Part shown: piece by piece, positions 2,163 to 2,471 of the stretch | Layout: every line of letters starts with the position of its first letter | How positions within the stretch are numbered: position 1 is the stretch's first letter | From: Sulfoacidibacillus thermotolerans | GTDB taxonomy: Bacteria; Bacillota; Bacilli; Alicyclobacillales; SLC66 | NCBI RefSeq assembly: GCF_003144315.1 | Contig: NZ_MPDK01000002.1 | Location: 124,001 to 188,000, forward strand | Reading direction: 5' to 3' | DNA length: 64,000 nucleotides | Program-made: the position numbers and the translations under genes | The notes under the pieces: model-generated | Databases searched by the model: none | Told to the model about the DNA's origin: nothing | What the model saw: the letters and a program-made list of their open reading frames with translations, nothing else

Positions 2163-2417
2163 TTACGAATCTAGCCACCCTGTTTGCGCCAGCAATCGTT
2201 CGATCGCCGCAGGATGATAACCTTGAACAAATTCTCTGCCAATGCGCAACAACGGCGCGGTAAAAGACCCCGTATAGTGAAGCATCTCATCAATCGATCC
2301 AGGATCTCGAAAAACATTCACCTCTTTAAAAGGTAAATGATGATGGGAAAGATACTCTTTCACCATTTTGCATTTTCCTCACTGTGTCGTCGTATAGACA
2401 ACTATCTCTTCACGCAT
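2163..2417 (-). CDS. Glutaredoxin-like protein with in-frame UGA (candidate selenoprotein)
   Basis: Read from the ATG at 2417 (AAGGTG 5-6 nt upstream), the frame gives MREEIVVYTTTQ, then TGA (2381-2379), then GKCKMVKEYLSHHHLPFKEV and onward to a normal TAA: 84 aa if UGA is read as an amino acid. UGA is residue 13 and Cys is residue 16, so the redox motif is U-G-K-C in place of glutaredoxin C-x-x-C. The strand before it (VVYTTT), the cis-Pro loop FTAPLL and the GYHPAAIERLL helix are glutaredoxin features. A bSECIS-like hairpin follows the UGA. Without readthrough only a 67-aa fragment lacking the active site could start at Met18. It lies 54 nt downstream of the sigma-54 activator, on the same strand, and may share its transcript. 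Alternatives are a pseudogene, a sequencing error or UGA decoded as Cys. Confidence 0.7.
2343..2381 (-). promoter_or_regulatory. Candidate bacterial SECIS element with its UGA
   Basis: After UGA (2381-2379) come 12 nt, then the hairpin 2366-2343: AUGG, a bulged U, GAAAG, loop AGUAU, CUUUC, CCAU. That is nine base pairs with one bulged U on the 5' side. The apical loop starts 22 nt after the UGA and has G as its second base. As I recall the published bacterial consensus, it asks for about 16-37 nt and a G in the first two loop positions; the bulged U also recalls the fdhF element. The pairing was read by eye. Confidence 0.6.
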
Positions 2418-2471
2418 CGTTACACCTTCTTTCCCTTGCGCATGAACCTCTATTGATGCGACAATGAGTGG

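Follow-up and report, generated by a model that had tools for sequence, protein, structure and literature searches.

Selenocysteine (Sec) glutaredoxins are an established family of bacterial selenoproteins. Members are known from Geobacter, Alkaliphilus and Moorella (PMC1794560), ten were found in Sargasso Sea data (PMC1088965), and the family is entered as PF00462 with a UxxC motif (PMC13188914). Only three selenoproteins were counted in Bacillales in 2006 (PMC1794560). Our own literature searches on selenocysteine in Alicyclobacillus and related bacteria brought up nothing relevant. Here we describe a candidate member of this family in Sulfoacidibacillus thermotolerans. The gene lies in the 64,000-nucleotide stretch that we analysed (the window). 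This stretch comes from contig C48 of a draft genome of 2.87 Mb with a completeness of 99.86%. A sequence-only reading of the window had noted an in-frame TGA at residue 13 of a glutaredoxin, followed by a hairpin, and had proposed a U-x-x-C selenoprotein. It left the strand unstated; the frame runs along the minus strand, from 2417 to 2163. The features of the locus are as follows.

2163..2417, minus strand: predicted selenocysteine glutaredoxin gene, 84 codons plus TAA, motif U-G-K-C (translation with TGA as U; PF00462)
2417-2415 and 2165-2163, minus strand: start codon ATG and stop codon TAA, respectively
2423..2429, minus strand: possible ribosome binding site GAAGGTG, 5' of the ATG, proposed from inspection of the sequence
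2379..2381, minus strand: in-frame TGA, codon 13, read as selenocysteine from ortholog comparison
2343..2366, minus strand: SECIS-like hairpin AUGGUGAAAGAGUAUCUUUCCCAU, loop AGUAU at 2352-2356 (MFE -8.3 kcal/mol; homolog comparison)
2163..2366, minus strand: 67-aa ORF with an internal ATG start, from the standard ORF list

Translation of the frame with TGA as U yielded MREEIVVYTTTQUGKCKMVKEYLSHHHLPFKEVNVFRDPGSIDEMLHYTGSFTAPLLRIGREFVQGYHPAAIERLLAQTGWLDS. Codon 13 corresponds to the first redox residue, and the C/U-x-x-C motif expected after the first strand is present as UGKC at residues 13-16. The match to the Pfam glutaredoxin domain PF00462 ran across the TGA (residues 5-64, 56 bits, E 4.7e-15, curated cut-off 22.9 bits), confirming that the codon interrupts a glutaredoxin at residue 13. 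Residues A54-P55 of the putative cis-Pro loop were invariant across six orthologs. At this locus the standard ORF list contained only the 67-aa piece beginning at the internal ATG. Standard annotation would thus record a truncated protein without the active site, and the enzyme would be overlooked.

The other two genomes of the genus contained orthologs 77% and 70% identical to the window protein, with TGA at the same codon, and TGA orthologs at 46-49% identity were present in three further genera of the family. Across the 59 genomes of the order, 12 had a TGA ortholog and two (G054 and G058) a Cys ortholog; codon 13 of the close orthologs is therefore TGA in 12/14 and Cys in 2/14. Named strains with the TGA form include Alicyclobacillus ferrooxydans TC-34 (L062) and Alicyclobacillaceae bacterium I2511. 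Homologs with Cys at the aligned position had the motifs CARC (L111) and CTRC (L112), and CPYC forms were also found. In a tree of 45 sequences, built from a short alignment and with moderate support, the 12 UGKC proteins formed one cluster, and the two Cys forms stood next to it. Comparison of orthologs had been suggested as a means of distinguishing Cys at this position from proteins that simply end there; in the orthologs the position held either Cys or a TGA followed by a conserved open frame.

The same comparisons bear on whether the gene is intact. A single TGC or TGT to TGA change in an ordinary Cys glutaredoxin, arising as a nonsense mutation in a pseudogene or as a sequencing error, would suffice to produce the observed sequence. 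However, the same TGA occurred in independent genomes, including those of cultured strains, which excludes the resequencing outcome (TGC or TGT) that the sequence-only reading had allowed for. In addition, dN/dS for the window gene against the two congeneric genomes was ~0.11 3' of the UGA, indicating that this segment is under purifying selection. As both the TGA and the frame behind it are conserved in other genomes, we rejected a pseudogene or sequencing error as exceedingly improbable. Translation could instead terminate at the UGA and resume at the ATG at 2366, the product then being the 67-aa protein. The ORF from this codon is open and a GAGGA stretch lies shortly 5' of it, but many orthologs have CTT, TTG, TTA or CTA in place of the ATG, while the frame 5' of the UGA and the catalytic motif are conserved. 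Moreover, the short form would contain neither active-site residue. Because the internal start is not conserved and the frame and motif preceding the UGA are, re-initiation was also rejected, as a very unlikely account of the locus. Readthrough of the UGA into a full-length glutaredoxin remained the preferred reading.

The hairpin had been drawn as starting 12 nt after the UGA, with 9 bp, one bulged U, and a loop, AGUAU, that begins after 22 nt and has G in its second place. Each of these features was confirmed. We compared the hairpin with the bacterial SECIS (bSECIS) model of PMC13188914, which calls for a stem of 4-16 bp, a loop of 3-9 nt with G within its first two positions, a spacing of 16-37 nt and an MFE of at most -7.5 kcal/mol. 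The window hairpin falls within these limits, with a stem of 9 bp and one bulge, the loop AGUAU, a spacing of 22 nt, and -8.3 kcal/mol for the 24-nt element. Its resemblance to bacterial SECIS elements therefore stood with respect to the model, although the bulged U, which had been likened to that of fdhF as a shared SECIS feature, did not. This bulge is peculiar to the window species, in which a synonymous TCA to TCC difference leaves the U opposite C, whereas in orthologs the two bases pair as U-A or C-G. In a 51-nt context the hairpin gave a z of only -1.66, and random synonymous recoding produced equally many pairs in 14% of trials. For these reasons the window hairpin taken alone is weak evidence, and it becomes significant through comparison with homologs.

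The stem G(C/U)GAAAG...CUUUC(G/A)C was near-invariant in UGA carriers from Bacillota, Deltaproteobacteria, Chloroflexi and Rokubacteria. These homologs were collected with peptide patterns and degenerate codons, so the nucleotides that they share were not built in by the search. Of the 7 bp, a mean of 6.6 could form in 34 distinct UGA-type sequences compared to 3.3 in 13 Cys/Ser-type sequences (P 4e-7, a value that overstates independence as the sequences are related). The window stem, with 6/7 consensus pairs, is among the weaker ones of the UGA-type set. Several of the 13 Cys/Ser-type stems have the same peptide. Several Cys homologs still make 5/7 pairs, and the Cys orthologs L111 and L112 had no such hairpin. 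When all stem cells were scored, 97.3% were paired versus 29-68% in slid versions. Covariation was limited to one pair, changed from C-G to U-A on both sides in 5 sequences, and most columns were invariant. Judged from these alignments, a SECIS hairpin kept in the UGA forms and missing from the Cys forms is a clear case. A Chloroflexi homolog (L069:1592-1813) has Ser (TSPYC) in place of Sec with the SECIS-like stem intact, perhaps because Sec was lost recently or because the assembly is in error.

The sequence-only reading had located no selenocysteine genes in the window itself. All of them were found in the genome on other contigs: one selA (585 bits), one full-length selB above the cut-off, one tRNA-Sec gene (selC) above the cut-off (65 bits, anticodon UCA by ARAGORN), and two selD genes above the cut-off, each with an in-frame TGA at the usual N-terminal catalytic site. 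The outcome that would have counted against a selenoprotein, a genome devoid of sel genes, was thus not observed. The N-termini of the two selD products (L031 and L034, on G000:C24 and C59) are clearly diverged. Among the 59 genomes of the order, selA was present in all 12 with a UGA glutaredoxin and in 17 of the 47 others (Fisher P 4.6e-5, which overstates independence because the genomes are related). The Cys-form genomes were divided, G054 being without selA and G058 with it.

A general suppressor or a change of the code might alternatively insert Cys, Trp or another residue at the UGA, and the Cys found at this site in two orthologs would suit such decoding. However, TGA closes 18/44 long ORFs in the window, from which it follows that TGA is a normal stop and the code is unchanged. 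A dedicated tRNA-Sec with a UCA anticodon is present together with SelA, SelB and SelD, and the SECIS-like hairpin accompanies the UGA forms. On these three counts we rejected general reassignment of UGA as highly unlikely. Selenocysteine at codon 13 is the reading that we retain. The genomic sequences hold a UGA at the catalytic position, a full sel set, and a UGA, frame and hairpin that are conserved, with no hairpin in the Cys forms. The proposal of a U-x-x-C selenoprotein with a bacterial SECIS was supported by the sel genes, by TGA or Cys in the orthologs and by its recurrence in independent genomes, and we conclude that the window gene very probably encodes a selenocysteine-containing glutaredoxin.

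For Sec insertion itself, for the catalytic role and for the partners of the protein we infer the following scheme. The hairpin, which lies within the coding sequence immediately 3' of the UGA at codon 13, would recruit SelB and Sec-tRNA(Sec), and these would translate the codon as selenocysteine. The product would act as a thiol/selenol-disulfide oxidoreductase. The Sec glutaredoxin of Clostridium (Alkaliphilus) oremlandii is a studied example; by analogy with it, Sec13 would most likely be the nucleophile that attacks the disulfide and Cys16 the residue that resolves the mixed intermediate. As the bacillithiol gene bshC is present in the genus, including this organism, and the fused glutathione synthase GshF gave no match above its cut-off in the genus, we weakly favour, as the most likely reductant, a bacillithiol system or one of the thioredoxin-reductase type over glutathione.

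The gene neighbourhood provided nothing firm as to operon context. In the window the glutaredoxin gene follows a PAS/sigma-54 activator gene by 54 bp on the same strand. This neighbour was not kept in G002 and G001, which have an unrelated gene on that side, and the more distant loci had no neighbours in common with the window. Two small adjacent genes at 1571-2085 on the plus strand, the second encoding a spore-coat F domain protein, stay beside the glutaredoxin gene in 3/3 genomes of the genus.

A PF00462 search of the organism's own genome identified exactly three genes, each with one in-frame TGA. The second (L015; G000:C59:54371-54604, minus strand; MYVVPLUPHC) converges on a selD gene. 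The third (L012; G000:C103:71639-71857, plus strand; YSQATUQKC) has a possible hairpin, AGCCA-AGGUU-UGGCU, ~19 nt after the UGA. Orthologs of both paralogs also have the TGA elsewhere in the family, those of the L015 type in several genera. It is possible, and we suggest it only tentatively, that every glutaredoxin of this organism is a selenoprotein (3/3 PF00462 genes found, from three separate subfamilies), and that these proteins serve a redox system built on bacillithiol rather than glutathione, in Bacilli that are presumably aerobic and acidophilic. Aerobic bacteria rarely keep selenoproteins (PMC13188914), and the question raised is why such bacteria would use selenium in all of their glutaredoxins. 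Elsewhere, two UGA glutaredoxin-like genes adjoin on opposite strands at G047:C91:11788-12372, and Salipaludibacillus aurantiacus, of another Bacilli lineage, has a glutaredoxin-like gene with an in-frame TGA (L100:3001-3162, GUMDC) in a genome that contains selA. In other genera of the family, longer open frames (L042-L046; 421-459 aa) begin with a Cys-type glutaredoxin domain (CEYC).

No NCBIfam model matched the window protein above its cut-off, YruB and NrdH being the best. The YruB family (TIGR02196) matched over the whole domain at 65.9 bits, below its cut-off of 88.55. The Uxx-star selenoproteins (NF041212, NF041211 and NF041114) are likewise glutaredoxin-like with Sec as the first redox residue, but the window protein fell below the cut-offs of all of these models (36.4 bits versus 66 for NF041212). 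Among the distant homologs found in this analysis, the UGA glutaredoxins of Syntrophaceae/Deltaproteobacteria and Chloroflexi (L071, L072, L075 and others) have UPYC where the window gene has UGKC; they are mostly 28-38% identical to the window protein and form a separate group in the tree, although their hairpin, GCGAAAGAGUUUCUUUCGC, is nearly identical. The UxxC glutaredoxins of Geobacter, Alkaliphilus and Moorella share with the window gene the glutaredoxin domain, UGA as the first redox residue and a SECIS inside the coding region; compared by domain, UGA position, SECIS and host, the window gene differs from them in its host, a member of the Alicyclobacillus group of Bacilli with bshC. 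The window gene thus appears, from sequence comparison, to represent a new branch of a known kind of protein, in spore formers of the Alicyclobacillus group. As Sec glutaredoxins are already an established family, the presence of several in one clade of Alicyclobacillus-group genomes is a useful extension rather than a new kind of system.
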